This document shows, piece by piece, positions 35,171 through 62,767 of a stretch of DNA of 64,000 nt (within the stretch, counting starts at the first letter, position 1; each line of letters begins with the position of its first letter). The DNA lies in assembly GCF_900169565.1 (NCBI RefSeq), contig NZ_LT828648.1:3260501-3324500 (forward strand). Direction: 5' to 3'. Made by a program: the position numbers and the translations under genes. The stretch is from Nitrospira japonica (GTDB taxonomy: Bacteria; Nitrospirota; Nitrospiria; Nitrospirales; Nitrospiraceae). The notes under the pieces were generated by a model. That model made no database searches. It saw only the letters and a program-made list of their open reading frames with translations, and was not told where the DNA came from.

Positions 35171-38100
35171 ATGCAAGCATGGGATCATGTTTCATTGATC
35201 CCCTCTTCCACGGAATGCTATGGTGAGGAGATGTCCGCGCCGTCTCGTCCCCCTAATCGACTCGTTCACCAGACGAGTCCATATCTGCTTCAGCATGCCC
35301 ATAATCCTGTGGACTGGTTCCCATGGGGGCCCGAAGCTCTCGAGCTTGCCAGGACACGGAACCGCCCGATCCTCTTGTCGATCGGCTATTCCGCATGCCA
35401 TTGGTGCCATGTGATGGAGCGCGAATCGTTCGAAAACGAATCCATCGCCGCGCTGATGAACCGGCACTTCGTGTGCGTCAAAGTGGATCGGGAGGAACGG
35501 CCGGACCTGGATGAAATCTACATGCAGGCCACCGTCAGGCTCAACCGAGGCCAGGGTGGCTGGCCGATGACGGTGTTTCTGACCCCTGAACAGCAGCCGT
35601 TTTTTGCCGGAACCTATTTTCCTCCGGATGACCGATGGGGACGCCCGGGATTTCCCGCCATTTTGAAGAAAATCGCGGAAGTCTGGGAACGAGACTCCGG
35701 TAGCCTTCGCACCCAAGCGCAGGAACTGACCGATCGCTTGACGCAGGAAGCCCATGCCACATTCCCCATGACGGTCAGCGAGACGGTGCTGACTGAGGCG
35801 GTGCGCGAGTTCCGCGATGAATTCGACGCGCGTTACGGCGGATTCGGCTCAGCCCCAAAGTTTCCCCCGGCCGCCGGTCTCTCCTTGTTGCTCCGCTGCC
35901 ATCGGCGCTCCGGCGATCCGAGCATCCTTCAGATGGTCACGAAGACGCTCGATGCCATGTCGGCCGGCGGCATCTACGACCATATCGGAGGAGGATTTGC
36001 ACGGTATTCCACGGACGAACGGTGGCTGGTTCCACACTTCGAGAAAATGCTCTACGACAACGCACTCCTGACCAGATCGTATTTGGAAGCCTTTCAGGTC
36101 ACCGGAAAGGCCGCTTACCGCGCGATCGTCCAGGAAGTGCTCGACTATGTGCTACGCGAAATGACCGGCAAGACCGGAGGTTTCTATTCCTCAACCGACG
36201 CGGATTCAGAAGGAGTCGAAGGCAAGTTCTTCGTATGGACGCCGGCACAGGTCCGCGCCGTTCTGACGAATGAGGAAGATGCAACCCGATTTTGCGCGTG
36301 CTACGACATTACCGAGCAGGGCAATTGGGAGCATCAGAGTATTCCGAACCGACTCCGGCCGATCGAGGAGGTCGCGCGGGAGCTCCGGATTTCCATTGAC
36401 GAACTCCAGAACACTGTCGATCGGTGCCGTCCCCTCCTTTACCAATCCAGGGCACAACGGCAACCTCCCGGACTCGACGACAAAGTGATCACCGCATGGA
36501 ATGGGATGATGCTCGGCACCCTGGCGGAAGCGGGGCGCGTGCTGGGGATGCCGCGATACATCGAGGCATCCAGACGGGCCGCCGACTTTTTGTTGACCGT
36601 TCACCGGACAGCCTCCGGTCGCCTCCTGCGGACGTCACGCAATGAGCACGCCCATCTCGACGGCGTCCTCGAGGATTATGCCTTTCTGGCGGAAGGGCTC
36701 ATTGATTTGTTTGAAGCCTGCGGCATGGACCGCTATCTGTCGGCGGCGCAGTCGCTCGGAGAACTAATCCTGACATCGTTCCGAGACGAGGTACACGGAG
36801 GCTTTTTCACGAGTTCACGCGAGCACGAAACGCTGATCATGCGCAGCCGTGAAGGACCGGACGGCGCCACCCCCAGCGGAAACGCCGTGGCAGCCTTCGT
36901 GCTCGCACGACTCGCACATCATGGTGACCGGCAGGACTTCCGCGAGGCAGCCGTCGGCGCCATTCGCGCCTATGGAAAACAGATCACCCGCTATCCCAAG
37001 GCCTTCGCCAAAAGCCTGGCCGTCGTCGATTTCGTGACGGAAGGTCCCCTTGAAATCGCATTGGTCGGTCGTGAAATGGATCCGGCACTGCAGAGCTTCA
37101 CGGACGCGCTACGTTCAATCTACTTGCCCAATCGGATTCTTGCCGTGACGCATCAGGTGGACGGGACATCAACGCATCCACTCTTGGCCGGCAAGACCAC
37201 GGTCAATGGAACGACGGCGCTCTACCTATGCCGTGATTTTACCTGCCAGCGTCCCATTACGGATCCAGGCGAAACAGTCGCCGCAGTCCATACTGCGCAG
37301 AAGCCCTCTTCGGCAAACGCGGGGGACCGATCTCTCAATGGACAGATGCTCGCCGGCTTCGCAACGGCGGAAGGAACCGCCAAGTATGCCGCACGGCAGG
37401 TCAATCATCCCAACGCACCTCCCGGGTTGGAAAACGGTTACGTCCCGTTCGGGGCAACCGGTCTCACCGTGTCCAAAGTCGGTTTCGGCACATACCGCAT
37501 CGATATGAGCGACAGGGAATACACTCTCGCCTTAGAAACAGCGCTGCGAAACGGCGTGAACTTAATCGATACTTCCACCAATTACATGGACGGCGACAGC
37601 GAGCGAGTCATCGGTCTTGCCATACGACGTCTGAACGCGGAAGAGGCTCTGTCCCGTTCCGAACTCATCATGGTCTCAAAGATCGGATATGTTCAGGGCC
37701 AGACTTTGGCCCGGGCCACGGCCCGAGAGCAATCCGGAACCCCGTATCCTGACATGGTCAAATACGGCGAGGGGATCTGGCATTGCATTCATCCCGAGTT
37801 TCTCGCCGACCAGTTGACGGCCTCGCTCGACCGGCTGGGATTGCAAGGATTGGACGTCTGCCTATTGCACAACCCAGAATACTTCCTATCGGAGGCAGGA
37901 CGTCGCAAGGACGCGAATCTGGAAGAGATACGCGAGAGCTTTTATCGACGGATACAGGATGCATTCGCATTTTTCGAATCGCAAGTGGCGCTCGGTCGAA
38001 TCCGTTGGTACGGTGTCTCCTCCAATTCCGTCGCGTCCGAAGCCGACGCCACGGATGCCACGTCGCTTTCTCGCTTTCTGGCCGCTGCGGAGGCAGCGGC

Positions 38101-38914
38101 GGCCTCACAGGGGCAATCCCAGCACCACTTCGCCGTGCTGCAATGTCCCATGAATCTCTTTGAGGCGGGCCCGCTGCGTACTCACAACACCGGAAATGGC
38201 CTGCAACAAACGGTCTTGAGTTTGGCCGGGCAAAGCCGCCTGGCGGTATTGGTGAACCGGCCGTTGAATGCCATGGCTGATCCGAAAGGCGGAATGTTAC
38301 GGCTGGCTGACCTTCCCCACGAAGGCCATCCAGTTGATGTGGAAACTCAAGTGAAGAAGGTCGGACAACTGGAGCAGGAGTACCGCGACACGCTGGCGTC
38401 TTCGATTTCCAATCCGCAGCAGGGTCTACAGCCAACCGACTTTTTCAATTGGGCGACCGAACTGAAACCACTGGAGGGACGCCTTCACGGCCTGGAACAT
38501 TGGGAGCAGATCGAGCACCAAGTGATTGCTCCTCATGTAAACCAAACCATGCAGGCGGTGCCGCGCCTGCTGGCTCCAGAGATGGCGGATCGATGGGAAG
38601 AATGGCGGGAACGTTATGTCCCTGAGCTCTTGAATTTGCTTCGCGGTCTGCGGCATCACGCCACGGAAAAAAGCCGCCAGCGAAGGCTGGCCGTCACCGC
38701 ACTGCTCGACCCCCTTCTCCCGGAAAACCGGCGCATGGAGTCGCTCTCTCGTAAGGCCCTCTGGATCGTCAGCAGCACCCCAGGTGTGACTTGCGTGCTC
38801 AATGGGATGCGATCACCGTCGTATGTGAAAGACTCTATCGAGGTGCTTCGGTGGGCGAATCTAGCGCAGGCACATTCAATATACGACCGGATGCCAGCTT
38901 CAACGGACGTGTAA
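35171..38914 (+). CDS. Fusion of DUF255/YyaL thioredoxin-like protein with an aldo/keto reductase
   Basis: A single 1247-codon frame. Residues ~21-180 are the DUF255 thioredoxin-like domain ([20 protein letters not shown] and C76-H-W-C79). Residues ~200-690 are the six-hairpin (N-acylglucosamine epimerase-like) part of the YyaL/SPATA20 family ([34 protein letters not shown]). After a ~60-residue linker, residues ~755-1240 form an aldo/keto reductase with the tetrad in [11 protein letters not shown] (Asp, Tyr), MVSKIGY (Lys) and LLHNPE (His). The two halves are normally separate proteins. GGAG before ATG 35171 supports that start. Cytoplasmic; substrate unknown. It faces the polysaccharide locus tail-to-tail with 2 nt between stops. 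Confidence 0.9.
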
Positions 38915-48959: not shown

Positions 48960-50540
48960 TTAATCTGGAACGAATCGTCTCAGTTCAGGTTCGATCGCCA
49001 TGGCAAATTCCATGACCCTTCGATCCGCCGACGCTTCCGTTTCTCCTGAACCGATCAGCGAAGCAATCCTCACCAGGGCCCCATCGGTCCGGTCCATCGT
49101 CATCGCATCCCACAGAAGATAAAACTTCACGAGATACTCGCTGGCCAGGGCGCGATTGCGCTGCTTGAACCAATACAGCACCACCTGACGCTGATCTTCC
49201 TTCTGGATGAGGACGCGGTTGGCGACGATGGCCGAGCTGGAGCGGACCGAAGACGGAACGGTCACACGTTCAAAGGACGATATTTCCCAGCCGCCCCCCG
49301 GCAGACAGCTCTGGGGCGAGTGCGCGGACTGTCCCTTCTTTTGAGACCGATAATAGGCGCTGTAGAAGTTGACGGGGCTGCCGCCGGAGGCGCGGTAGTC
49401 AGCCAACACGTAGTCGTCGAAACGAAGAAGGTCGATGAACTGTTTTTCGAGATGAAGCGACGTGCCTTTCCAGCCCTGCAGGACCATCGGGAAATCCACG
49501 AATTGAGCCCGCGCGGGAGGACGCTCTTCCCGTTGATCGATCGCCGCCGATGCCATGGCAAAGGGCACGAGCAAGGCCACGCTATAGAGATAGACCGGTC
49601 CGGGAAAGGACGGCCGCAAGACCGCGGAGGAACGGACTGGTATGTCCGTCCGCGCTCCGCGATCGGACATGGCCAGATTCGCCGAGGAAAGAACGCGACG
49701 CGCGGAGACTCCCTTGGAGGGAATCTTGGAAAGGATCAACATCTCGAGCAGCAGCACTCCCAAGCTGCTCATGAACAACACCCAGCCCTCGAACAGATGG
49801 TAAAAGCCTTCCGCAGCGCCTTGGCCGTACAGTTCTACCAGGATGCCGATGACTCCGATTCGAAATCCGTTGATCAGAATCGAGATGGGGATCGCGGATA
49901 CGACCAACACGACCCGCTTCCATGTTTTGTCCTGATACAAGTACGCGCATAGCAGAGCCAGCGCCGTCAGAGGGAACAGGTATCGGATCCCGCTGCAAGC
50001 CTCGATGACTTGCAATTGGACGGAACCGAGATCGATGACGTTTCCTTCACGAAATGCGAGGACTCCTACAAGTTGAAGAAACCCGACTCCCAAAGCGGAC
50101 GACCATAACTGCAATTGGCTCGCGAGGCCCGCGTAGATGAACGTCGGCAAAGGAATCGCCGCAAGGAGATAGCCCAGGGGAAAGGCGATGACCCTCGTTC
50201 TCGGAATTCCGATCAACGAGACCGTCAACCCCACGATGACCATCCAGAGCGACACGTGAAGAATGAAAAATACGGTGGTAAGCTCCCCCACCCAATACAG
50301 CAGCAAACCCGCCGTGATGATGACGACTCCCCACACAGACTTTTCAACCCTGACCTCCGCGATGCGATGGCGCAGCCGCCAGATCAAGACCAGCGAGACA
50401 AACGGAATGAAGAGGCCGAATCCGTAATCTTCGCTTCCCCACCACAGACGAAGAAGAAACTCCAGGCTGTCCGCATACATGTATCCCAGCAGGCCCACGG
50501 CCGCGACCGCGCTCATGATAAGTGACAGGCTGGTGTTCAT
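48960..50540 (-). CDS. xrtD: Exosortase (XrtD type) fused to an EpsI domain
   Basis: Membrane transpeptidase expected to cleave and process the VPLPA-CTERM protein encoded just upstream. Residues 1-280 carry about eight membrane helices and the catalytic triad Cys182 (EACSGIRYL), Arg227 (NGFRIGV) and His248 (FYHLFEGWV). Residues ~300-526 are an EpsI (DUF3485) domain with FPMVLQGWKG and QSCLPGGGWEI. The fusion is the form I associate with the VPLPA-CTERM-specific exosortase XrtD, which agrees with the neighbouring substrate. A 10-bp inverted repeat lies in its leader. Confidence 0.92.
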   Translation of the reverse strand: MNTSLSLIMSAVAAVGLLGYMYADSLEFLLRLWWGSEDYGFGLFIPFVSLVLIWRLRHRIAEVRVEKSVWGVVIITAGLLLYWVGELTTVFFILHVSLWMVIVGLTVSLIGIPRTRVIAFPLGYLLAAIPLPTFIYAGLASQLQLWSSALGVGFLQLVGVLAFREGNVIDLGSVQLQVIEACSGIRYLFPLTALALLCAYLYQDKTWKRVVLVVSAIPISILINGFRIGVIGILVELYGQGAAEGFYHLFEGWVLFMSSLGVLLLEMLILSKIPSKGVSARRVLSSANLAMSDRGARTDIPVRSSAVLRPSFPGPVYLYSVALLVPFAMASAAIDQREERPPARAQFVDFPMVLQGWKGTSLHLEKQFIDLLRFDDYVLADYRASGGSPVNFYSAYYRSQKKGQSAHSPQSCLPGGGWEISSFERVTVPSSVRSSSAIVANRVLIQKEDQRQVVLYWFKQRNRALASEYLVKFYLLWDAMTMDRTDGALVRIASLIGSGETEASADRRVMEFAMAIEPELRRFVPD

Positions 50541-50803: not shown

Positions 50804-51469
50804 TTACGCTTGCGTTCCCTTGAAGCTTCGCAATCCTCCCGCACCCAAGCCTACCAGAGAGATCAGACCGGCGCCAAAAAGGATCATCGCCGCCGGCAAT
50901 GGGACGGCGGTGAGACTGCTCAAAGAGCCCTGGATCCTGACCAAGTTTCCGTCGGCATTTTCAAAAATCAGCCGCCACCTGCTGCCGGTGAGAGAGGACA
51001 AGCTGGGCGGATTCTGCATGTCCGTGTTTGCAAAGAGACTGCCTTCACGGTCCAAGTTGAGGTCGAACCGCATAGGAGAATACCCGTTGATCGGAAGACC
51101 GGTCGCCGCCGTCACAAGCCTCCACCTGTCTCCGAACGTCCCACCAAGATCAATCCCCTTGGCCACTTGAACGGTATTGGCACCAGCCATGTAGTTCGAC
51201 GTGTATCCGCCGATCGCCAACGTCATGTTGGTGACCACGCCGGGGTAATTTCCGCCGGTGGCCGGACTATTGTCGAACTGGAATGTTCCGGAAACCGGAG
51301 ACATCAGATTCACCGTCGGCATCAGTCCACCGTTGACTTGACTGACTCCGCCGGTGAACGAATAGGTGACGAGGGCCGCATCCGCACCCGTCCACGGACC
51401 GACAAGCGACAACAGCAGGATCACCGAAAACATGATCCGCTTCATCGCCGATTGCTGAGTCATTCTCAT
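50804..51469 (-). CDS. VPLPA-CTERM sorted extracellular protein
   Basis: 221-residue secreted protein. An N-terminal signal peptide (residues 1-31, FSVILLLSLVGPWTGADA) precedes a beta-rich body with TYSFTGGVSQVNGG and GTFQFDNSPATGGNY, typical of PEP-CTERM family exoproteins. The sorting tail is VPLPA at 189-193, a hydrophobic helix (AMILFGAGLISLVGLGAGG) and a basic end LRSFKG. GGAGAAG before ATG 51469 fixes the start. It is expected to be cleaved by the XrtD encoded next and released or bound to the exopolysaccharide. Its promoter looks sigma-54 dependent. Confidence 0.93.
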   Translation of the reverse strand: MRMTQQSAMKRIMFSVILLLSLVGPWTGADAALVTYSFTGGVSQVNGGLMPTVNLMSPVSGTFQFDNSPATGGNYPGVVTNMTLAIGGYTSNYMAGANTVQVAKGIDLGGTFGDRWRLVTAATGLPINGYSPMRFDLNLDREGSLFANTDMQNPPSLSSLTGSRWRLIFENADGNLVRIQGSLSSLTAVPLPAAMILFGAGLISLVGLGAGGLRSFKGTQA

Positions 51470-51515
51470 GACACTTCTCCTTCGTAAAAGTGGTACAACG
51501 TGACGCACGCTGTAC

Positions 51516-51533
51516 CTCAGCAAGAGCCAGACC
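51516..51533 (-). promoter_or_regulatory. Sigma-54 (-24/-12) promoter of the VPLPA-CTERM gene
   Basis: The minus strand reads GGTCTGGCTCTTGCTGAG: GG at 51533-51532, exactly 10 nt, then GC at 51521-51520, with TTGCT as the -12 block. Predicted start of transcription is near 51508, giving a ~40-nt leader. An almost identical site is found at 63478-63495. The rest of 51534-51773 shows no gene. Confidence 0.75.
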
Positions 51534-52532: not shown

Positions 52533-53731
52533 GACGCCTTCCTTGAGAGTTGAGTGTGCTCCCCCATCGCCGCCTCATAGACCGCTATCAGCATTTCGAA
52601 GTTCCGTTCTGCCGAAAACTTCGATTCATAGGCATGGCGTGCTCCCTGACGGAGCGTGGCACGATGGGAATGATCATGCCAAAGCGCCTGCACTTTCGCT
52701 GCCAGATCGGCTGCATTTCCTGCTTCAAATCGTGTTCCTGTGACGCCCTCCTCGACAATTTCCTCCAAACTTCCAATACGGGACGCAATGATCGGTGTCC
52801 CAAGAGCGTAGGCATCGGCAATCACCATGGGAAAGCCTTCGTACCATTCTGACGGCACGATCTGAAATGCCGCGCGACTGACCGTATCGATGACGGTTCG
52901 CCGGTTGCAAAAACCGAGAAATTGGATCGGCAAATTCTCTCGCGAGACATATTCCTCCAAGGACTTTCGCAAGGGACCGTCTCCGAGAACTCTCAATGGT
53001 ACGCCCTGCACCGTCTTCCAGGCAGACAGGAGCGTATGAACGCCCTTCTCTTGGCTCAACCGGCCGACGTAGACGGCAAATCCTCCTTGGCCGTCACCCG
53101 GAACATGGATGTCCGAGACAAAGTTCGGCTTGATTGCGACTCGCTCTCGCGGCAAGCCGCCGGCGATCAGACGTCCGGCAGCGAACTCCGTGAGCGCAAT
53201 GTAGCGATTCACGAGCGACCCGTACGTGTCTCGCCATCGATTGAAAAGCAACATCCAGACCAGGGCGCCCGTGGCGGGCAGCGATCCTCTGTAACATCGG
53301 TGACGCAGCGCAGAGAAGAGGCCGCCGCCTATACACTTTTCACAGGGAGTTCCGTTGCGAAGCAGAAGTCCCCCGGGACAGATCAACCGGAAATTGTGAA
53401 GGGTTTGCACGACAGGCACACCGTTGTCCCGGCAAGCGGCATAGGCGCTCGGGGAAATGATGGGGAACGTATTATGGAAATGGACGACATCCGGTCGGCT
53501 CTTGCGCAGAACCCATTCGAGGTCTTGATAGCTCCGGTCCGACCAGGCTGTTTCATGAGCCACTCTCAGCCTGCCGGCCAGACTGGAATCGTCGATGTCG
53601 TCGTTGAAGCGCTCGAAAATGGTCACGTCGATTCCATGTCGTCTCAGCAACGTCACCTCATTCTGGAACACTTGATCTTCGCCGCTTGGCGCACTCGACC
53701 GGTAGTGGTTATGCGCGACCAACACTTTCAT
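52529..53731 (-). CDS. GT4-family glycosyltransferase
   Basis: GT-B fold retaining transferase of the exopolysaccharide pathway. N-terminal domain starts KVLVAHNHYRSSAPSGEDQV, then HFHNTFPIISPSAY and PVVQTLHNFRLICPGG. The donor-site half shows YVGRLSQEKGVHTLL and the E-x7-E type region SEWYEGFPMVIADAYALGTPII. Cytoplasmic. Four-base overlaps on both sides show tight coupling with the polymerase-like gene and the GT26 gene. Sugar specificity cannot be read. Confidence 0.93.
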   Translation of the reverse strand: MKVLVAHNHYRSSAPSGEDQVFQNEVTLLRRHGIDVTIFERFNDDIDDSSLAGRLRVAHETAWSDRSYQDLEWVLRKSRPDVVHFHNTFPIISPSAYAACRDNGVPVVQTLHNFRLICPGGLLLRNGTPCEKCIGGGLFSALRHRCYRGSLPATGALVWMLLFNRWRDTYGSLVNRYIALTEFAAGRLIAGGLPRERVAIKPNFVSDIHVPGDGQGGFAVYVGRLSQEKGVHTLLSAWKTVQGVPLRVLGDGPLRKSLEEYVSRENLPIQFLGFCNRRTVIDTVSRAAFQIVPSEWYEGFPMVIADAYALGTPIIASRIGSLEEIVEEGVTGTRFEAGNAADLAAKVQALWHDHSHRATLRQGARHAYESKFSAERNFEMLIAVYEAAMGEHTQLSRKAS

Positions 53732-55107
53732 GATTTCTCACCTATTGGATATAGCGTGTCGGCTGAAACCTGCACCATTTGGCTGGCGATACGTTTGGCC
53801 GTGGCGGCGCAGACCGTGATGGCGAGAAAGATCAGGAGGTTCGGATGCAAGACCTGAAATGTCGGACCGGTGAGACTTCTGATGCCCAGCAGCAGCAGCG
53901 CGCTCATCAATAGCAGCCAGGTCGGTCTCCACCATTGGCTGTCTTGGTGACCGAGTATCGAAGGACGGCACGCATACAGCGAGAAGCACGAGCAAATGAG
54001 CGCCGCCATCAATAGGCCGAGTCCGATCACACCGAGATCCACCAAGACCTCCAGATATGTGTTATCCACCGACGACACGTTCGCCAGCGCATCGATCGAG
54101 AGAGACCGGTGTCCGGCATAGTAGCCGTGGCCGACGAGCGGCGACGTGGTGAACGCACGCCAAATTTCAGGCCAGAACTCCGTCCGTCCGGACATGCTGA
54201 CGAATACGGCCTTGGATTGACCGCGCAGGACGTACGCCTCGACATAGGTATAGGCTGCCAGGGCGACCAGACCGGCCGCCGAGATCATCATCAGCCCCAA
54301 CACACGCTTCTTTCCAAACCAAAAGATCGCGACTGCTGCAAGCAGAAACCCAAGGAGCGACGTACGGCTGTGACCCAGATAGATCGTCAGCGCCCCCAGG
54401 CCCAACAGACATAGGGAACTCAGCACGCCGATGCCTCGCCCGTAGAGAAACGCCACCAGCCCGCCGACGCCGACCATGGCGCCGAATTGAGTCAGGGAAT
54501 TCGGGTTAATTCTGGGGAATTGCCCCCAGTACTCATACGCCTGACTGCCTCGGCCAAACGTTTGTCTGACAAATGCGAGCTTCGGCTGTAGTACGCCTCC
54601 GACCAGAGCCGTGAGCACCAGAAACAAGAGAATCAACCACAACACCTGCAGGGCGCCGTCAATATCATCAAACGTGTTGAGGCTGACCGCGATGGCAAGG
54701 AACACCGACGCTGCCGCGAAGACCTCGAATCCTTTCCACAAGCTCAGCAACGGATTCACAGAATAGATGTACGAGCTCATGGCGAACAGGGAGAAAAAGA
54801 ACATCATGGTCAGTGCGGCACAGCATCGAGAAAATGGAAACCCGCGGACGCTGAAAATCACCCACGAGACGAGACAGAGGACGATCAGGAGGCAGATCCG
54901 GATCACACGGCTCTCGTCGATCGCGTCAACCGAAAGAGTCGCTTGACTCTGCGCAGTGAGCAATACGGATGTGAAAAGACCGATCAACAGGAGGCTGACC
55001 ACAGGAAGACGTTTGACGGAACACACCCACTCGTTCACCGGATGAAACACGGCCAATGAACCGACCATGACGAAGGAAATGGCAAAAATTGCAATATTGA
55101 TAAGCAT
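53728..55107 (-). CDS. O-antigen ligase/Wzy-like polymerase
   Basis: Polytopic inner-membrane protein of 459 aa with about 11-12 hydrophobic helices and a large periplasmic loop containing GRTEFWPEIWRAFTTSPLVGHGYYAG, followed by VDNTYLEVLVDLGVIGLGLL, which is the characteristic Wzy_C/RfaL-like loop region. It would polymerise or ligate the flipped repeat units. Its place between glycosyltransferases and near a flippase gene favours polymerase. It begins 27 nt after the large fusion gene. Confidence 0.88.
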   Translation of the reverse strand: MLINIAIFAISFVMVGSLAVFHPVNEWVCSVKRLPVVSLLLIGLFTSVLLTAQSQATLSVDAIDESRVIRICLLIVLCLVSWVIFSVRGFPFSRCCAALTMMFFFSLFAMSSYIYSVNPLLSLWKGFEVFAAASVFLAIAVSLNTFDDIDGALQVLWLILLFLVLTALVGGVLQPKLAFVRQTFGRGSQAYEYWGQFPRINPNSLTQFGAMVGVGGLVAFLYGRGIGVLSSLCLLGLGALTIYLGHSRTSLLGFLLAAVAIFWFGKKRVLGLMMISAAGLVALAAYTYVEAYVLRGQSKAVFVSMSGRTEFWPEIWRAFTTSPLVGHGYYAGHRSLSIDALANVSSVDNTYLEVLVDLGVIGLGLLMAALICSCFSLYACRPSILGHQDSQWWRPTWLLLMSALLLLGIRSLTGPTFQVLHPNLLIFLAITVCAATAKRIASQMVQVSADTLYPIGEKS

Positions 55108-55134: not shown

Positions 55135-58100
55135 CTATGAAGAGCCTGTGGTGTCCTTGCGCAGACGATCCCGGATTACTTGAATAAGCCTCTGTCGCAC
55201 ATCTCGGGGCGATTCAAGTTCGACGCCCCCGGTCTCATCCGCCAGAAGCTTCCGCCGCTGTTCTGCGCCGATGGCAAGGCGGATTCGCTCTACCCCGATC
55301 GCCGTAGCCAAATACCGGCTGTCATCGATCCCTTCCCGAAATCCCTCCCACTGCAGCGTCGGGATGGGATATGACAACGTCGGATAGGTCATGTTATGGG
55401 CTCGCCACTTCGGATCGGCCCAGTCATCCCAACCAAACGATCCTGTCTGGTACGCGTAATCACACGCGCCGTCGAATCCGTCGAGCCAAAGGGAGATGCC
55501 GTACCGTTCCCGATAGGTGAACGGCTTTTCTTCGCCGGCTTGAGGATCTCCGTAGGCCCAGGGCGTGATACCGACCCTCTTGCCGACTTGGGACGTCTTC
55601 ACCGTTCCGCGCGGCAACACCGCAACGTCGAGCAGGCCGCTCAATGCCTCAAGGTTGCCGGAATTGAATGCGACGAAATTCTTGGCGCCCAGCTCATGGG
55701 CGATTTGAAACGCCTGCCGATTCTTCAGAAGTGTTTTCGCATCCTTCTCATCCAGATTGTAGACGTACAGATCGGAAAACCCGAAGGTATGGGCGGCCGC
55801 GAGCACCGCCATGAGCTTCCGCGAATACGATTGCCTGTCGGCAGCTTCCGTCACCTTCCAGTCGACATAGAGCAAGTCCCTTCCCTTGAAATCGGCTGCG
55901 CGCATCCGCTCCAGCGCGATAGACAGACTTCGCAGGTCGCGATCCGTCGCATAGTCGTGATCAATCGCGATATTCGTCAGGCCGTGTGCGCGCATATCGG
56001 AAAACTCGGCCTGGAGCTGCCCGACCGTCTTGGCTCTGGCATCCAATCCCGGCTGCCCCCTGTTCAACCAGGCGAGGTAATACAAGGCATAGTCGATAAC
56101 CGGCTCGGCAAGTCGAACCGGCAGCACGTCAACCGTCAATCTTAGCTGCGTGGCAATCTGATCGTTCCCGCTTCTGAACGTAATCGTGACGTCCCCATCG
56201 TAGCGTCCGCCCGAGGCGTCCGGCGGCACCGTAATGCTGAGCCATACCTGCTGATTGGATCGGGCGGGGACGGTAAAAGGAAGCAGGCGATCGGCATCCT
56301 GCAGCCGGTCCACATTCTTGATCAGGTTGACCTGCTCCTGGTGGTCGACGCGCACAAGATCCGGGTCATGGAGCAGCAGCTCGGGAACCAGGATTTTTCC
56401 GCCTCCATGCTGTCGATGGATCGAGTCACTGGCCTGATACCACGCCTTGACCACTCGAATGTCGATAGCCGCAGGAGGGAGGCCATCCGCTCCCCCCGCC
56501 TTCTTCAGCCCGGTTGTCGCAATGGTGACCAGTTCCAACTCCCGGTCACCGGAACGGATCACGAAGCTGGCCGGTTCCGTTTCTCCACGAGCGGCCGTGA
56601 CCATCAGACTTGTGTCGGGAGACGTATTCGGTACGGGATCGGAATACGGCAGGATGTACCCGTTGCTGATGGGTTCCGTCACCGTTAAGAGTTGATACTG
56701 GCGCGCCCCGACCGACCAGGCCTTGGGCCGAACGTGGGATGCCGTGTTGTCCTGGGTCGCTCCCACTATGGTCCACGTGGCACGGCCGTCGTAAAACTCT
56801 CCCCGATTCCCCTTCACGGTCAGCGGGTGGGATCCGGCCACGTTCTTGTATCGCTGCATCAGCCCGATACTGAGCGCGTCGGCAAGCGGCAATATTGGGA
56901 AGCATAGCAAGATCCCGATAAGAATTCCCAACAACCTGACTCTTCCAAGCGTCGCGGCTCGACGCGGGTCTGTCGCAAGCCGAAGGTCGCTCGAATCTAC
57001 GCTGGGTGGCGCCTGAAGCGCACAAGACCGATACCATTCTTGGATGGTTTTCCACCTGTTATCCCAAAGATAGTGTTCGGCCACGCGCTTTCTGGCCTGC
57101 GCCCTCAGGTGCGAATACACTCTGGCGGTGCGGCATACGTCGTCGAGCGCGGCGGCCAGGTTACGCACCGTATCATCCGGATCCCCGACCGTGATCACAC
57201 GGCCGCACTCGTTGGAAACCATTTCACCTGGTCCCCCATAGCCGAGGCAGACGACCGGAAGCCCATGCGCCAACGCCTCTAGAACAACCATCCCTCCACC
57301 CTCAAAGCTCGGGAAGAGAAACAGATGGGCCTTCTCCATTTCCTTCAGCGCAAGCGCGCGAGGCAGCCAATCGATGAATCGCACGCGATCGCCTATGCCG
57401 AGGGTTCGGGCCAGCTCTTGGAGAGCCGGGCGCTGCGGCCCCTTTCCGACAATCACGAGCACGGCCTTGGGGCGCGAATGAGCAAATTGTGCAAAGGCTC
57501 GCATTGTGAGGTGGAAGCCTTTCAACGGAACAAGACGCCCTATGCTGAGCACGCGAAACTCTTCGGTCGTATCTTTATCGACCTCAGCGCTATCCGGTAT
57601 GGACTCGACGCCGATCGCCGGATGCGCCACGAATTTTCCCCGTCCCAGCAGCGACAAGGGGAACCGGGCGCCGACCGATCGATCGATCCCGACGATGAGC
57701 GAGGCACGCATTGCCGACAGGGCGAAACACGGATCCACCGACCGCATGAAGGACTGGAATGCCCTTCGGAGACGATCGCTTGCCAATGCGTCCCAGCTGA
57801 ATGACAGCCTGGATGGAACCGTCGGATGGCTGCCAATTGGTCCCCACACGAATGGGAGCGGCAAAAAGGCGAGAAAGGTAAACAGCCAATCGTTGACGAA
57901 CGTCACATGATGCGCCAAATCGAAGCGGACGGTTTTACAGAGACGCCGTGCAGCATGCCAGGCTGCGAATTGCCACAGATAATAATAGGTCCTCACTCCC
58001 CGTTGGCCTCTTTTCCAGAAGCTCGCCCAACGAGGCAAATCCACATAGACGAAATGCAACGCAGGATTTGGCAAAGCAGCCAGCGCCTGTTCGATCTTTT

Positions 58101-59340
58101 CGCGGTTATTGGCGCGAGTGATGACCCACACGTCGTTGGTTCGACTGATCGCCTGACACATGTTCCAACCCACGCCCGGCTCCGATCCAGCGTCCGGTTC
58201 GCACGCGTACGCCGCCACGAGAACTTTTTGCGGATGGGCTGCATGTCCCGCTTCCGTCAGCACGTGCTGGACACACTCGCGCAAGTATGCGGAGAGCCCC
58301 GATGATCCGGCGGATTCACGCGTCGACAGCATGGCCAGGTACAGCAGTGCGTACCCCTGCACGTCCCTGGAGGACACGCGAACGCTGCGGACCAGTGATC
58401 CGAGCATGGGATGACTGGACACGTTCAAGATCCGCCGCATCGCTTCCTTCGGAGTTGTGCGTTTCAACAGCCGTTCCACCATGAAGATTCGATGAAAGAC
58501 ATCCGCAAACAGCGGCCGTTCTGCGGATCCATATTCCCAATCGAAGACGTACAGGGATCCGTCGGCCAATGTCAGGGTATTCCACGGTGCATAATCACCA
58601 TGGCTGTACGCGACCTTTGCGGTACGGTCGCTGAAAATCTCTCTCCACGCTTGCATGGCATGATGGAGAACGGCCTCGCTCTCCGGATCATTCATACCTG
58701 CGGCAAGTTCCATGAGCCCAAACGCCCGCTCGATCTGATGGATCGGCCGCTCTGCCCGATCCACGTCGCTCAGTTCCTTGAGAAACTGCGCCTCTTGATG
58801 CGAGATCCCGACGGGACTTCGACGTCCTGGGGCCGATGGTGCGCTCACGATGAGCAGGGTACTCTCGGGGCCATCCTCGATGGCCAGTACGTTCGGGATG
58901 ATTGCGTTGGTAAAACCCACCCGCTTTAATTTCGACAGCATCGCCGCTTCACGGCGAAGAAGCGCTGCGACCCGATTGTTCGTACCCAGCTTGACATACG
59001 CCGTCACTCTGCCGGATTCCGTCACTTGGGCGGTCATCTTTCGATGAGGTCCCTTGGTGCCAGGAGAAAAAGACACAGTGAGACGGGAATTTCCCAACTT
59101 CGCCCGAATGATCTCTCTCACGGTGTTCAATTCAACCGATTGCTCCGCCGTTTCGGGAGCCGTAAATACGGCGCGTCCGATGGCGTCGGGCATGACCTGG
59201 ACTATCTTCCTGACAAGACGACCGGGGAACGAAAACGGATGGTAGAGATGAAACGCATTCGCCAAGGTATCGTCATCCCCGACCCAGAGCTTCGGATCGG
59301 AGGAATGGGGAAAGCATCGCCATGACTGCATGATTGACAT
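55135..59340 (-). CDS. Three-module fusion: APH-like kinase, GT4 glycosyltransferase, membrane helix, periplasmic DUF4091/glycoside-hydrolase-like domain
   Basis: One uninterrupted 1401-codon frame. Residues ~60-360 resemble the aminoglycoside-phosphotransferase fold (AYVKLGTNNRVAALLRRE, catalytic SHGDYAPWN at 246-254, metal motif FDWEYG at 266-271). Residues ~370-775 are a GT4 enzyme (ACEPDAGSEPGVGWNMC, SIGRLVPLKGF, LFPSFEGGGMVVLEALAHGL). A single membrane helix at ~802-822 (LLGILIGILLCFPILPLADAL) precedes ~580 residues that look extracytoplasmic: beta-sandwich, TIM-barrel-like part and a DUF4091-type end (LQWEGFREGIDDSRYLATA). The ATG shares one base with the upstream stop (TAATG), supporting this start. 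Likely topology: kinase and transferase inside, hydrolase-like part in the periplasm. I know of no standard protein with this order. Confidence 0.88.
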   Translation of the reverse strand: MSIMQSWRCFPHSSDPKLWVGDDDTLANAFHLYHPFSFPGRLVRKIVQVMPDAIGRAVFTAPETAEQSVELNTVREIIRAKLGNSRLTVSFSPGTKGPHRKMTAQVTESGRVTAYVKLGTNNRVAALLRREAAMLSKLKRVGFTNAIIPNVLAIEDGPESTLLIVSAPSAPGRRSPVGISHQEAQFLKELSDVDRAERPIHQIERAFGLMELAAGMNDPESEAVLHHAMQAWREIFSDRTAKVAYSHGDYAPWNTLTLADGSLYVFDWEYGSAERPLFADVFHRIFMVERLLKRTTPKEAMRRILNVSSHPMLGSLVRSVRVSSRDVQGYALLYLAMLSTRESAGSSGLSAYLRECVQHVLTEAGHAAHPQKVLVAAYACEPDAGSEPGVGWNMCQAISRTNDVWVITRANNREKIEQALAALPNPALHFVYVDLPRWASFWKRGQRGVRTYYYLWQFAAWHAARRLCKTVRFDLAHHVTFVNDWLFTFLAFLPLPFVWGPIGSHPTVPSRLSFSWDALASDRLRRAFQSFMRSVDPCFALSAMRASLIVGIDRSVGARFPLSLLGRGKFVAHPAIGVESIPDSAEVDKDTTEEFRVLSIGRLVPLKGFHLTMRAFAQFAHSRPKAVLVIVGKGPQRPALQELARTLGIGDRVRFIDWLPRALALKEMEKAHLFLFPSFEGGGMVVLEALAHGLPVVCLGYGGPGEMVSNECGRVITVGDPDDTVRNLAAALDDVCRTARVYSHLRAQARKRVAEHYLWDNRWKTIQEWYRSCALQAPPSVDSSDLRLATDPRRAATLGRVRLLGILIGILLCFPILPLADALSIGLMQRYKNVAGSHPLTVKGNRGEFYDGRATWTIVGATQDNTASHVRPKAWSVGARQYQLLTVTEPISNGYILPYSDPVPNTSPDTSLMVTAARGETEPASFVIRSGDRELELVTIATTGLKKAGGADGLPPAAIDIRVVKAWYQASDSIHRQHGGGKILVPELLLHDPDLVRVDHQEQVNLIKNVDRLQDADRLLPFTVPARSNQQVWLSITVPPDASGGRYDGDVTITFRSGNDQIATQLRLTVDVLPVRLAEPVIDYALYYLAWLNRGQPGLDARAKTVGQLQAEFSDMRAHGLTNIAIDHDYATDRDLRSLSIALERMRAADFKGRDLLYVDWKVTEAADRQSYSRKLMAVLAAAHTFGFSDLYVYNLDEKDAKTLLKNRQAFQIAHELGAKNFVAFNSGNLEALSGLLDVAVLPRGTVKTSQVGKRVGITPWAYGDPQAGEEKPFTYRERYGISLWLDGFDGACDYAYQTGSFGWDDWADPKWRAHNMTYPTLSYPIPTLQWEGFREGIDDSRYLATAIGVERIRLAIGAEQRRKLLADETGGVELESPRDVRQRLIQVIRDRLRKDTTGSS

Positions 59341-60728
59341 TAGATGTTACGCAATCGTGTTGCGCACTCCTGTACGAGCACATGTGAGATCCGAAGCACG
59401 ACGTCTTCCGGGGTACCATCCGTTCGAACCGCGCACATATGCCCCCAACGAGGCAACTCTTCCTGATACTGGCGCATCTGCTCGGATATGGATTCAGACG
59501 ACAATTCCGGTTTCCGTGCATGGACGACGTCCGGCTCGTTCACGAGTAGAATCGTGACATCTGGGTTCGGAACCAGCCTGGCCCCCAGCCTCAACAGCCA
59601 GGACGGCAGCGCGAAACCATACCGCTGCGGATTGACCACAACGTCGGCGAAATACCGCTCCCCGACAATCAGAGTCGTCCGGGCTTTGCGGGGATAGATG
59701 ACGAGCCAGTATCCGACTGCGAAATCCATCAGGTAATACAGAAAACGAACACAGGACGTGACCCGGCCATACGCGGCATCCTGGGGCGGGGCAATGCCTT
59801 CCGATCCTCCTGCACTCCGGTCTGTGTCCCGCCTGCTGAGCTTGGGAAACAGGTTCGGACGCCAGTGAAATCGCCAGGTAGCGCGAAACGCCCGCTCAAG
59901 CTCTATGGGCAAGAGGCCGGCCACCGTTGATTTCCCGCTCCCGTCAGGTCCGATCAACACCACAAACAGACCGCTCGGCCGCAGGAATCTCCGAAAACGT
60001 CGAACCCATGAGAGCAGTTTCCCTCCCAGATAGGAAAGCAGGTGCGCCCGTCGAAATCGACTCTCCAATCCAGTTCGCAGCTGATTCAGTAGATCGGTGG
60101 CTGACTGGACGTCCTCGGTTCGGCACAGACTGTCCAATTTCTCGCGCCCTTCAACTCCGAACCATTCCGTAAGCGGTCCTTCGAGCTGCTTCGCGCAGTT
60201 CACGAGGCCCTGTTGCAGCCCCATGACCTTTTGTTGTGCGAAAGCTCCCTTCATTACCCGTTTGATCAGGGTGTACAGAACCTCCTTGTCGGCAGATAAT
60301 CGAACGACACCGGAGATCCTGGCTCGCCCGTCAAGGAGTGCCGGAATTGGGACATGGTATCGGTTCACTCCAAATGGATCGCATAAACAGTCCAGGTGCA
60401 GGTACAGCCCGCGACGATCGGTAATTTTGAGAATATAGTAGTACCCGTGCAGGACGTCATAGTGGAGACAATGGACGATCTGAAGCCATCCTTCCGCTTC
60501 CATTGCACGCAGGATCGGGGTCACGACGGTCCGTGGATCAGCTAAGAAACCGATATCGACGTCGCCTGCGATCTCTCCCTCTCCATACCTGACCGGATGA
60601 AGGAGCGCGTACTCGACTCCGTCACGGTCGAACCTCGCCAGGATTTCGCACAGCGCTTTACCGCTCTCACCGGCGGGCGCCGCACTTCCCAACGTCATAG
60701 GAGCTTGGACTTGAACGGCGGTCGTCAT
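59340..60728 (-). CDS. Nucleotidyltransferase-like domain fused to a thymidylate-kinase-like P-loop domain
   Basis: From ATG 60728 (4-nt overlap with the methyltransferase stop) the protein has 462 residues. The N-terminal part contains EYALLHP and GDVDIGFLAD, like the metal motif of nucleotidyltransferase folds, and YLHLDCLCDPFGVNRY. The C-terminal ~210 residues start with Walker A VLIGPDGSGKSTVAGLLP at about 255-270 and show the kinase-like GERYFADVVVNPQRYG. It is not a canonical Tmk (too long, different lid), so a role in phosphorylating a glycan precursor is possible but unproven. Stop overlaps the next start. Confidence 0.82.
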   Translation of the reverse strand: MTTAVQVQAPMTLGSAAPAGESGKALCEILARFDRDGVEYALLHPVRYGEGEIAGDVDIGFLADPRTVVTPILRAMEAEGWLQIVHCLHYDVLHGYYYILKITDRRGLYLHLDCLCDPFGVNRYHVPIPALLDGRARISGVVRLSADKEVLYTLIKRVMKGAFAQQKVMGLQQGLVNCAKQLEGPLTEWFGVEGREKLDSLCRTEDVQSATDLLNQLRTGLESRFRRAHLLSYLGGKLLSWVRRFRRFLRPSGLFVVLIGPDGSGKSTVAGLLPIELERAFRATWRFHWRPNLFPKLSRRDTDRSAGGSEGIAPPQDAAYGRVTSCVRFLYYLMDFAVGYWLVIYPRKARTTLIVGERYFADVVVNPQRYGFALPSWLLRLGARLVPNPDVTILLVNEPDVVHARKPELSSESISEQMRQYQEELPRWGHMCAVRTDGTPEDVVLRISHVLVQECATRLRNI

Positions 60729-61423
60729 GAAGCGATCTTGGGCGTTGCAACCACGATGATGGTGCCGGCCAACACCGGCACGAGTTTGAACAATGGCTGG
60801 CCGATCGCAAACTTGACCTTCTGTTTCCAACTGTAGGGAGGCTCCGTATAGGCCCCGTACATTTCCGCGATGTCGTACCCGTGACGCTCGAACAAATGGA
60901 GAAGCGTCTCCGGCGAATAGAAGCACACATGCTCGACATGCTCGACATATTGGCCGCTCCAGCGACGGAGCTGATAGTGCAGTCCGAAGGCGTTGTTGGT
61001 AGAGACGATGAAGCTTCCCGTCGGCTTCAGAAATCGCCTGACTCCTTCCAACATGGAACCGGGCTTGGTGATGTGCTCCAGCAGGTCTCCCGCCAAAACG
61101 ATGTCGAAGGTCTCCTTGAGGTCGAGTTTTTCCAACTCTTCGGCATTACCCTCGTGGAGATGGCGGAAGCCCATCTCGCGCATGGTATCGAGACTCTTCC
61201 CGTCGAGGTCGACGCCGTGCAGTTCACCGGCCTCGTCACGCAGCATCCAATGGAGAAGACTCCCTCGCATGAGCCGATCCTTGAGATACTGTCCTGAGCT
61301 GCAACCCAAATGGAGCACGCGCCGACCGCGGCACCTTTCCTGGAGCAATTGGGTCCGAGACAGATACTGAGACAATGTGGTCATACGATTTTCACTCCTC
61401 TCGATAGCCCTTGCGATCTTCAT
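60725..61423 (-). CDS. Class I SAM-dependent methyltransferase
   Basis: 232-residue Rossmann methyltransferase. Motif I is RVLHLGCSSGQYLKD, then the acidic end of strand 2 (LHGVDLDGKSLD), FDIVLAGDLLEHI and FLKPTGSFIVSTNN. A C-terminal hydrophobic region (FKLVPVLAGTIIVVATPKIA) may pack into the fold or touch the membrane. It lies 6 nt after the flippase gene and overlaps the next gene. Likely methylates a sugar or lipid-linked intermediate of the exopolysaccharide; substrate unknown. Confidence 0.9.
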   Translation of the reverse strand: MKIARAIERSENRMTTLSQYLSRTQLLQERCRGRRVLHLGCSSGQYLKDRLMRGSLLHWMLRDEAGELHGVDLDGKSLDTMREMGFRHLHEGNAEELEKLDLKETFDIVLAGDLLEHITKPGSMLEGVRRFLKPTGSFIVSTNNAFGLHYQLRRWSGQYVEHVEHVCFYSPETLLHLFERHGYDIAEMYGAYTEPPYSWKQKVKFAIGQPLFKLVPVLAGTIIVVATPKIAS

Positions 61424-61429
61424 GCGCCC

Positions 61430-62767
61430 TTATTCATTGGCATGCGCCAGTCGCGGCTTGTGTTCCTCACTTGCCGTGTGCATATAGCGAATTCGCAGGC
61501 TGCACAGCACGAAACATTGCGTCAGACAGAGCACGAGCATCGCACCGCCAAGGCCGTAGTGCTTAATGACGGGATAGCCGAGCACCATCGTGGCCAACGC
61601 ACCCATCGAGCTGGCGAGATAGATGGACTTGGTATCCCCCACCACTCTCAACGCCGCGGTCGTCGGCCGCTGCAACATGCCCAAGAGGTAGTACCCTCCC
61701 CACCACCAGACGATCCATCCATATCCTCGATATGTCTCGCCGAAAAGAAGCGATAACCAATACTCCGACCACAAGCCGGCAATGGCGGCGAGAATGAGTA
61801 CCGCCAAGGAACCGACGAGAAGAGCGCGGCGAAGATACCCGTCAAGCCCGGCACGGCCAAACCTGGCATACTCGGCGGCGGCCCGGACCGGAATGAGCGT
61901 TTCCATCGAGAGGAAAAGAATGTTGGCAGCACCCAGAATGGCGAGGGTCGCATTGAGTGCACCGACGGCAGAAACCGAGAGAACTGCGGCGACGACGTAC
62001 AGGACCGACTGGCTTCCGAACCAATACGCCACATTGTTGGCAACCAGCCATTTCCCAAATTCCCAGTGCTGCCGTGCGACCGTCCCGGCAGTCTTCAACT
62101 GCGTGATCCTGAGTCTCATCACTCCTTCATGCTGGAAAATCCCGATGAAGAGGGCGGCTGCCGAGGCCGCGCTAACCATCCACAACGCCCCGGCGGCACT
62201 CAAGGTCGACGTCGTGGCGAGTAGGAACAATGCGCACAGACGGAACCCATGAGTGCAGAGGTCATTGAGGAGCGCGGATCCCGTGCGACGCACCGTCAGA
62301 AAATAGCGTCTGAGATAGTCCTGCGCGAGGACAAACAGGGCGGCGATGCCAAGAGGTACGGCCAGAGATCCCAGGGTCCAGTCGGGAATCGAGAGGGACA
62401 ACAACACTCCCGGAATGGCAATCACGCCCACGCAAGCCAACCCGAATAGCAGTGCGACTTGCAGCACGCGGTCATAATAGGGCGCGGAGTCTTCGCACCC
62501 CAACCGCGGTCCACGAACCTGCATGGGAGAGACTATGAGCGCCATTTGAATTCCGGCCAGGAACACCAACACCCCCCATGCCAATACGAATCCACCGAAA
62601 TCTTCAGGATTGAGATACTTTGCAAGGATCAGCGTTGTAAGAAAATTCGACGCGCTGACGAGGACTTGGTCGGCCAAGACCATGACACTCTCGCCGCGTC
62701 CGACTCCTGACACCGCATGGGGAATTCTCCGAACCGTCTCGGCCCACGAGCCCAATCGTGAAACCAC
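61430..62767 (-). CDS. Wzx-like polysaccharide flippase
   Basis: Integral membrane protein of 445 aa with about 12 helices, of the MOP/polysaccharide transporter type (ASNFLTTLILAKYLNPEDFGGFVLAWG at the start; LNATLAILGAANILFLSMETLIPV; a positively charged helix PVIKHYGLGGAMLVLCLTQ near the end). It would move lipid-linked repeat units to the periplasmic face for the Wzy-like polymerase. First gene of the tightly packed synthesis block; no sigma-54-like site was found directly in front of it. Confidence 0.9.
   Translation of the reverse strand: MVSRLGSWAETVRRIPHAVSGVGRGESVMVLADQVLVSASNFLTTLILAKYLNPEDFGGFVLAWGVLVFLAGIQMALIVSPMQVRGPRLGCEDSAPYYDRVLQVALLFGLACVGVIAIPGVLLSLSIPDWTLGSLAVPLGIAALFVLAQDYLRRYFLTVRRTGSALLNDLCTHGFRLCALFLLATTSTLSAAGALWMVSAASAAALFIGIFQHEGVMRLRITQLKTAGTVARQHWEFGKWLVANNVAYWFGSQSVLYVVAAVLSVSAVGALNATLAILGAANILFLSMETLIPVRAAAEYARFGRAGLDGYLRRALLVGSLAVLILAAIAGLWSEYWLSLLFGETYRGYGWIVWWWGGYYLLGMLQRPTTAALRVVGDTKSIYLASSMGALATMVLGYPVIKHYGLGGAMLVLCLTQCFVLCSLRIRYMHTASEEHKPRLAHANE

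Follow-up and report, generated by a model that had tools for sequence, protein, structure and literature searches.

A kinase–GT4–GH123-type hydrolase fusion in an exopolysaccharide cassette of Nitrospira japonica

Introduction

Enzymes that hydrolyse or cleave a polymer are encoded in exopolysaccharide gene clusters, as described for AlgL (PMC8829089), PslG (PMC9075953) and Myxococcus xanthus EpsB (PMC7484181), and the purpose of a cutter in a polysaccharide-making cluster is stated as an open question for PslG (PMC9075953). In the GT2-GH17 'orphan' BcsA-like and NdvB proteins of pseudomonads, a periplasmic glycoside hydrolase (GH) and a cytoplasmic glycosyltransferase (GT) are proposed to be connected across the membrane (PMC10237404). 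Here we analyzed a 64,000-nucleotide stretch of the Nitrospira japonica genome (the window), in which a single minus-strand gene at 55135-59340 encodes a kinase, a GT4 glycosyltransferase, a hydrophobic segment and a GH123-clan hydrolase. We propose that this gene is probably a lineage-specific, derived fusion that unites two genes of a conserved Wzx/Wzy exopolysaccharide cassette. The hydrolase is separate and carries a signal peptide in the cassettes of relatives; in the window, that signal peptide is the point at which it continues the frame from the end of the GT4.

Results

The fused gene is one uninterrupted reading frame

The fused gene runs from an ATG at 59340 to 55135 on the minus strand and contains 1401 codons with no internal stop, as an earlier note made from the DNA letters alone had described. 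Its front junction is the TAATG of that note, in which the ATG and the stop codon of the upstream gene at 59340-60926 have one A in common. The host genome is a single contig of 4,084,817 bases, and the whole protein matches itself there without internal stops. Both ends of the frame are anchored by homology: residues 7-771 align with a protein of genome G366 and 88-772 with one of G084, while toward the C-terminus residues 830-1386 align with G286 and 850-1390 with G084. Homology that extends in a single frame over ~7-772 and ~830-1396 shows that the frame is not due to chance. The uninterrupted frame is thus confirmed, with the following features.

55135-59340, minus strand: fused open reading frame (ORF), 1401 aa, in the order kinase, GT4, internal signal or anchor, GH123-clan hydrolase
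58243-59139, minus strand: APH/choline-kinase-fold domain, residues ~68-366 (PF01636, LicA profile match, AlphaFold2 structure)
58579-58602, minus strand: kinase catalytic loop HGDYAPWN, residues 247-254, with H247, D249, W253 and N254 invariant in 14 homologues
57025-58230, minus strand: GT4 glycosyltransferase, residues 371-772 (PF00534, 1e-28)
57277-57303, minus strand: GT4 EX7E motif, E680-E688, seen in the sequence, both Glu invariant in fused homologues
56935-57024, minus strand: linker 773-802, Arg-rich ahead of the hydrophobic segment, with 5 Arg in 785-803 and no in-frame start codon
56875-56934, minus strand: hydrophobic segment 803-822 with prolines and a terminal A-D-A before L, a candidate captured signal peptide or signal anchor
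55153-56793, minus strand: GH123-clan (beta-N-acetylgalactosaminidase-like) hydrolase, residues ~850-1396 (PF22680, PDB profile, AlphaFold2)
55747-55752, minus strand: catalytic-type Asp-Glu pair D1197-E1198, invariant in 12 hydrolases and aligned with the DE of NgaCa

The hydrolase is a separate gene in every other genome examined

The domain order, which the earlier note had suggested seeking in other genomes, recurs in part: the homologous hydrolase is a separate gene in every other genome examined, whereas the kinase-GT4 joint is found fused in two others. The observation that the note named as refuting its reading, homologues always encoded as two or three genes, therefore holds for the hydrolase joint but not for kinase-GT4. 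A class-wide search of 270 genomes, one per species, yielded 18 hydrolase genes in 17 genomes. For seventeen of these genes the open frame measures 589-663 codons; that of the window alone lies in one of 1403. We also scanned GTDB with two peptide patterns, retaining the best 80 matches, so that a distant fusion could be missed; none of the 86 hydrolase frames in the resulting 78 loci carries a GT4 or a kinase. A conserved triple fusion was therefore rejected, being absent from the relatives, the phylum sample, the class-wide searches and these 78 loci from the best 80 matches. Seven long hydrolase frames elsewhere (1033-1482 aa) were checked as candidate GT fusions and contain no GT; where Pfam matches anything in them, the match is to a lectin-like, CBM9, mannanase-type or sorting domain.

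In G084, G286 and the Deltaproteobacterial contigs L056-L058, the same modules are accompanied by a hydrolase that has a gene and a signal peptide of its own. In G084, this hydrolase (609 aa) adjoins Wzy, and a separate 789-aa kinase-GT4 protein adjoins the gene for a nucleotidyltransferase (NTase) joined to a P-loop protein. In G286 and G440, a separate hydrolase is followed directly by a separate GT4. On L056-L058, the hydrolase, Wzy, NTase-P-loop, kinase and GT4 are consecutive separate genes, with Wzx just upstream on L056 and L058 and a kinase/GT4 overlap of four bases on L057. In a phylogenetic tree, the cassette hydrolases (window, G286, G084, L056-L058) form one clade (support 100/95), set apart from the common secreted homologues of Nitrospira, Planctomycetota and others.

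The kinase and GT4 are fused in three genomes, all Nitrospirota (window, G084, G366), and are neighbouring separate genes in eight cases reaching out to Deltaproteobacteria (G091, G117, G317, G229, G339, L056-L058); the GT4 tree does not decide between a single and a repeated kinase-GT4 fusion. In G366 (L051:7894-10950), a thymidylate-kinase-like P-loop domain, the APH-like kinase and the GT4 share one 1018-aa frame, so that the cassette is fused in another way there. The place of the NTase half is taken by a separate overlapping gene. The position that the hydrolase occupies in the window, between GT4 and Wzy, is held in G366 by a right-handed beta-helix protein (L051:6530-7921), perhaps a substitute polymer-modifying enzyme.

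Each of four cassette joints thus occurs in fused form in one genome or more: NTase/P-loop (window, G084, L056-L058), P-loop/kinase (G366), kinase/GT4 (three genomes) and GT4/hydrolase (window). Such serial fusion suggests that the products associate physically or stoichiometrically. The coupling of synthesis and editing put forward in the earlier note draws support only indirectly, from the clustering of the same modules in distant bacteria and from the fusion of different joints in different genomes.

The joint resembles a captured signal peptide

Residues 801-819 are the strongest hydrophobic stretch of the protein (Kyte-Doolittle mean 2.4), the runner-up (1.58) being located inside the GT4. 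Five Arg residues stand just upstream of a 12-residue core (803-814), which is followed by prolines at 815 and 818 and an A-D-A end; charged flank, core and end together follow the tripartite plan of cleavable signal peptides. In the separate hydrolase homologues, a signal peptide precedes a conserved W-T/S-I-x-G-A strand, for example MDKKSILIIMVFAMVHVSIGAAQA in G286, with AD after the apparent cleavage point. Residues 803-822 of the fused protein align with these signal peptides, in a poorly conserved region where the register is approximate. Since the separate homologues begin with signal peptides at that place and the segment has an A-D-A end, the single membrane helix that the earlier note placed at ~802-822, while indeed the sole strong hydrophobic segment, is most likely the captured signal peptide of the hydrolase with a signal-peptidase-like site. 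Judged by these sequence features, release by signal peptidase I between ADA and LS and retention as an anchored hydrolase appear about evenly balanced. The continuous frame supports one membrane-spanning polypeptide, but given the cleavage-like site this is just one of two likely outcomes. In either case, the kinase and GT4 are predicted to be cytoplasmic and the hydrolase periplasmic, which is the topology that had been anticipated.

TTG803/804 are the only in-frame starts able to open the hydrolase together with the hydrophobic segment. Their anti-Shine-Dalgarno energy of -3.3 kcal/mol equals the background mean, which supports the earlier statement that no internal start has a ribosome site. 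An internal translation start for the hydrolase is therefore unlikely, the charged n-region also lying upstream of these codons. Because TTG803/804 lack both a ribosome-site signal and a positive n-region of their own, the hydrolase would be best exported as part of the fusion, a point in favour of a real fusion rather than a simple sequencing error.

Kinase, GT4 and hydrolase retain their catalytic residues

The N-terminal domain belongs to the APH/choline kinase superfamily, with its fold, Lys, Glu, HxDxxxxN motif and metal-site Asp. A Pfam scan of the full-length fused protein left the kinase unmatched; it surfaced with the N-terminal part alone (residues 1-775; PF01636, E 3.9e-6, 27.2 bits against a cut-off of 23.2) and by structure. 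A profile built from 14 kinase homologues matched the choline kinase LicA in the PDB (1.9e-8). The AlphaFold2 model (pLDDT 88.7) finds its best structural match in fructosamine-3-kinase (FN3K; Z 17.5, 3.5 A, 255 residues), tied within 1 Z with APH(4)-Ia (Z 17.1) and LicA (Z 16.9). The alignment of the 14 sequences has 9 invariant columns, E131, H247, D249, W253, N254, D267, W268 and E269 among them, and K117 is nearly invariant. The HGDYAPWN loop and FDWEYG (residues 266-271), both named in the earlier note, were located. The kinases of L056-L058 have ~110-160 extra N-terminal residues, degenerate-methyltransferase-like by eye, and HRD in place of HGD in the catalytic loop.

The GT4 assignment was likewise borne out: residues 371-772 carry the Glycos_transf_1 domain together with the EX7E motif, and PF13692 also matches (5e-26). 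This domain is 49% identical to the GT4 of L057 across 403 residues.

The C-terminal part is a GH123-clan protein, with the GH123 N-terminal domain PF22680 (E 2e-6, 28.2 bits against a cut-off of 27) and a barrel bearing the catalytic Asp-Glu pair. PF22680 is present in all 12 hydrolase homologues. The GH123_cat/DUF4091 domain (PF13320) is unmatched in the fused protein at E <=1 and matches 2 of the 12 homologues (best 1.6e-6). The hydrolase profile matched NgaCa (8k2f) in the PDB (2.6e-15), and the AlphaFold2 model (pLDDT 93) superimposes on NgaDssm (8k2j; Z 24.9, 3.2 A, 445 residues) and on NgaCa (8k2g; 439 residues). The DE motif of NgaCa is described as catalytic and was probed by point mutation (PMC11087588). 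Judged by its family, the activity would be of a putative beta-N-acetylgalactosaminidase type. The proposed order of kinase, GT4, hydrophobic segment and hydrolase therefore stands, with key catalytic residues present. One homologue (L057:161-2266) keeps its DE pair; ~150 residues are inserted between this pair and the C-terminal part, and the protein stops early.

The gene lies in an exosortase polysaccharide locus

The neighbouring genes are as follows.

59340-60926, minus strand: NTase and thymidylate-kinase-like P-loop protein, 528 aa as listed (PF02223, 1.7e-5), the same pair as in relatives
60725-61423, minus strand: S-adenosylmethionine (SAM) methyltransferase (PF13489, 5e-16)
61430-62767, minus strand: Wzx-like flippase (weak MatE match), with homologous flippases in the cassettes of relatives
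53728-55107, minus strand: Wzy/O-antigen-ligase-like polymerase (PF04932, 3e-17)
48960-50540, minus strand: exosortase XrtD with EpsI domain (TIGR04152, 534.8 bits, cut-off 400)

XrtD, Wzx and Wzy in one cluster agree with the earlier description of an exosortase polysaccharide locus. The XrtD system is represented both by the TIGR04152 match above its cut-off and by a VPLPA-type C-terminal sorting signal, AVPLPAAMILFGAGLISLVGLGAGGL, near the end of the neighbouring ORF 50804-51523, whose product is a likely substrate of the exosortase. Proteins resembling this product are encoded near the cassettes of G366 and G286. The NTase has a DVDI motif, and the NTase-P-loop gene is conserved beside the APH-like kinase in Nitrospirota and Deltaproteobacteria. 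With the GTG start as listed, it would share ~200 bases with the methyltransferase gene, so that the true start is probably further in. Elsewhere in the window (35171-38914, plus strand), a 1247-aa ORF joins DsbH/DUF255 thioredoxin-like and aldo/keto reductase domains.

Discussion

We picture the fused protein as follows. The ribosome would make a single ~155-kDa chain. Its kinase and GT4, folded in the cytoplasm, would attach or alter a sugar of a lipid-linked repeat unit. From what is known of these families, the GT4 would add the sugar to the lipid-linked unit, and the kinase may phosphorylate a sugar, a lipid or another acceptor in the same pathway. The Arg-flanked hydrophobic segment would then enter the Sec channel with its N-terminal side in and its C-terminal side out. 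Wzx would be expected to flip the unit and Wzy to polymerise it, and the hydrolase, folding in the periplasm, may cut a beta-linked N-acetylhexosamine (GalNAc-type) bond in the Wzy-made polymer. Cutting could serve trimming or the clearance of stalled polymer, as AlgL clears the periplasm (PMC8829089).

Weighing against a derived fusion that couples two activities are the occurrence of the triple fusion in one genome only, the low identity (11-18%) of the hydrolase to characterised GH123-clan enzymes and the prospect that, if the chain is cleaved, the meaning of the fusion is limited to fixed 1:1 synthesis. Because just one genome has the triple fusion, a stop lost through a sequencing or assembly error, merging two adjacent genes, has to be considered. 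In the linker, several codons would become stops by one substitution, a single-base error could remove a stop in the ~30-codon linker, and the fusion is unique among all homologues searched. A split hydrolase would however need a start, for which TTG803/804 alone, with neither ribosome-site support nor a positively charged n-region, are available, and the genome is one contig; we regard such an error as improbable. We also give little credence to the idea that the hydrolase domain binds glycan but is catalytically idle: its low identity to the characterised enzymes would fit, but the DE pair is invariant and the complete fold is retained.

Within the fusion reading, the fate of the chain could take two forms. 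It comes close to an even chance that signal peptidase I cleaves every chain after A822, so that the kinase-GT4 stays in the cytoplasm, the hydrolase is set free in the periplasm and the fusion is functionally neutral. The short core, the two prolines and Ala at -3 and -1 are typical of a cleavable signal peptide, and the separate homologues show cleavable-looking signals at the same place, yet an internal signal after an 800-residue cytoplasmic part is unusual. Bradyrhizobium FbcH (cytochrome b-c1) is a precedent for such a polyprotein. Somewhat more tentatively, the chain may stay uncleaved as a bitopic synthase-editor at the Wzx/Wzy complex, with the GT4 inside and the hydrolase outside. 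This is consistent with the continuous frame that has no internal start and with the Arg-rich inner flank, and the GT2-membrane-GH17 'orphan'/NdvB proteins are modelled with such an architecture (PMC10237404). The segment nevertheless resembles a cleavable signal more than a long anchor, and every other hydrolase found is separate. The full proposal, an uncleaved single-pass enzyme that holds GT4 and a sugar or lipid kinase inside and a GH123-type cutter outside and so tethers polymer editing to synthesis, is more speculative still.

Whichever fate applies, the derived fusion is a natural link between the cutter and one particular transferase-kinase pair and so predicts action on the same repeat unit; it probably shows that builder and cutter act on the same polymer, and it offers a single gene with which a shared repeat unit can be tested. 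The comparison further exposes a cassette of NTase, P-loop kinase, APH-like kinase, GT4 and GH123-type hydrolase common to Nitrospirota and Deltaproteobacteria.

Each part of the protein has described counterparts. The kinase has the fold and catalytic residues of LicA, the aminoglycoside phosphotransferases and fructosamine-3-kinase, at 12-16% identity. Residues 372-772 are similar over the full length to the M. xanthus GT4 EpsH (NF041879), but at 110 bits they lie far under the equivalog cut-off of 800. With the GH123-clan enzymes NgaCa (Group 1), NgaDssm (Group 3) and BvGH123 (PMC11087588), the hydrolase shares the whole-domain fold, the N-terminal beta-domain and the DE pair, whereas the biosynthetic-cluster setting and the GT fusion are found only on its side. 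AlgL, PslG and EpsB are likewise glycan cutters encoded with the synthesis genes of their own polymer; unlike the fused hydrolase, they are separate proteins of other families. The pseudomonad 'orphan' BcsA-like and NdvB proteins come closest in plan, with a cytoplasmic glycosyltransferase and a periplasmic hydrolase in one membrane protein as proposed here. Their families are unrelated, a GT2 with a transmembrane region and a GH17 as against GT4 and GH123-like domains, so that the fused protein is not of the GT2-GH17 type, and theirs is a conserved architecture where ours is a single instance. As far as our searches reach, this one instance is new in its combination of GT4 and GH123 families, in its added kinase and in its probable origin by signal-peptide capture.

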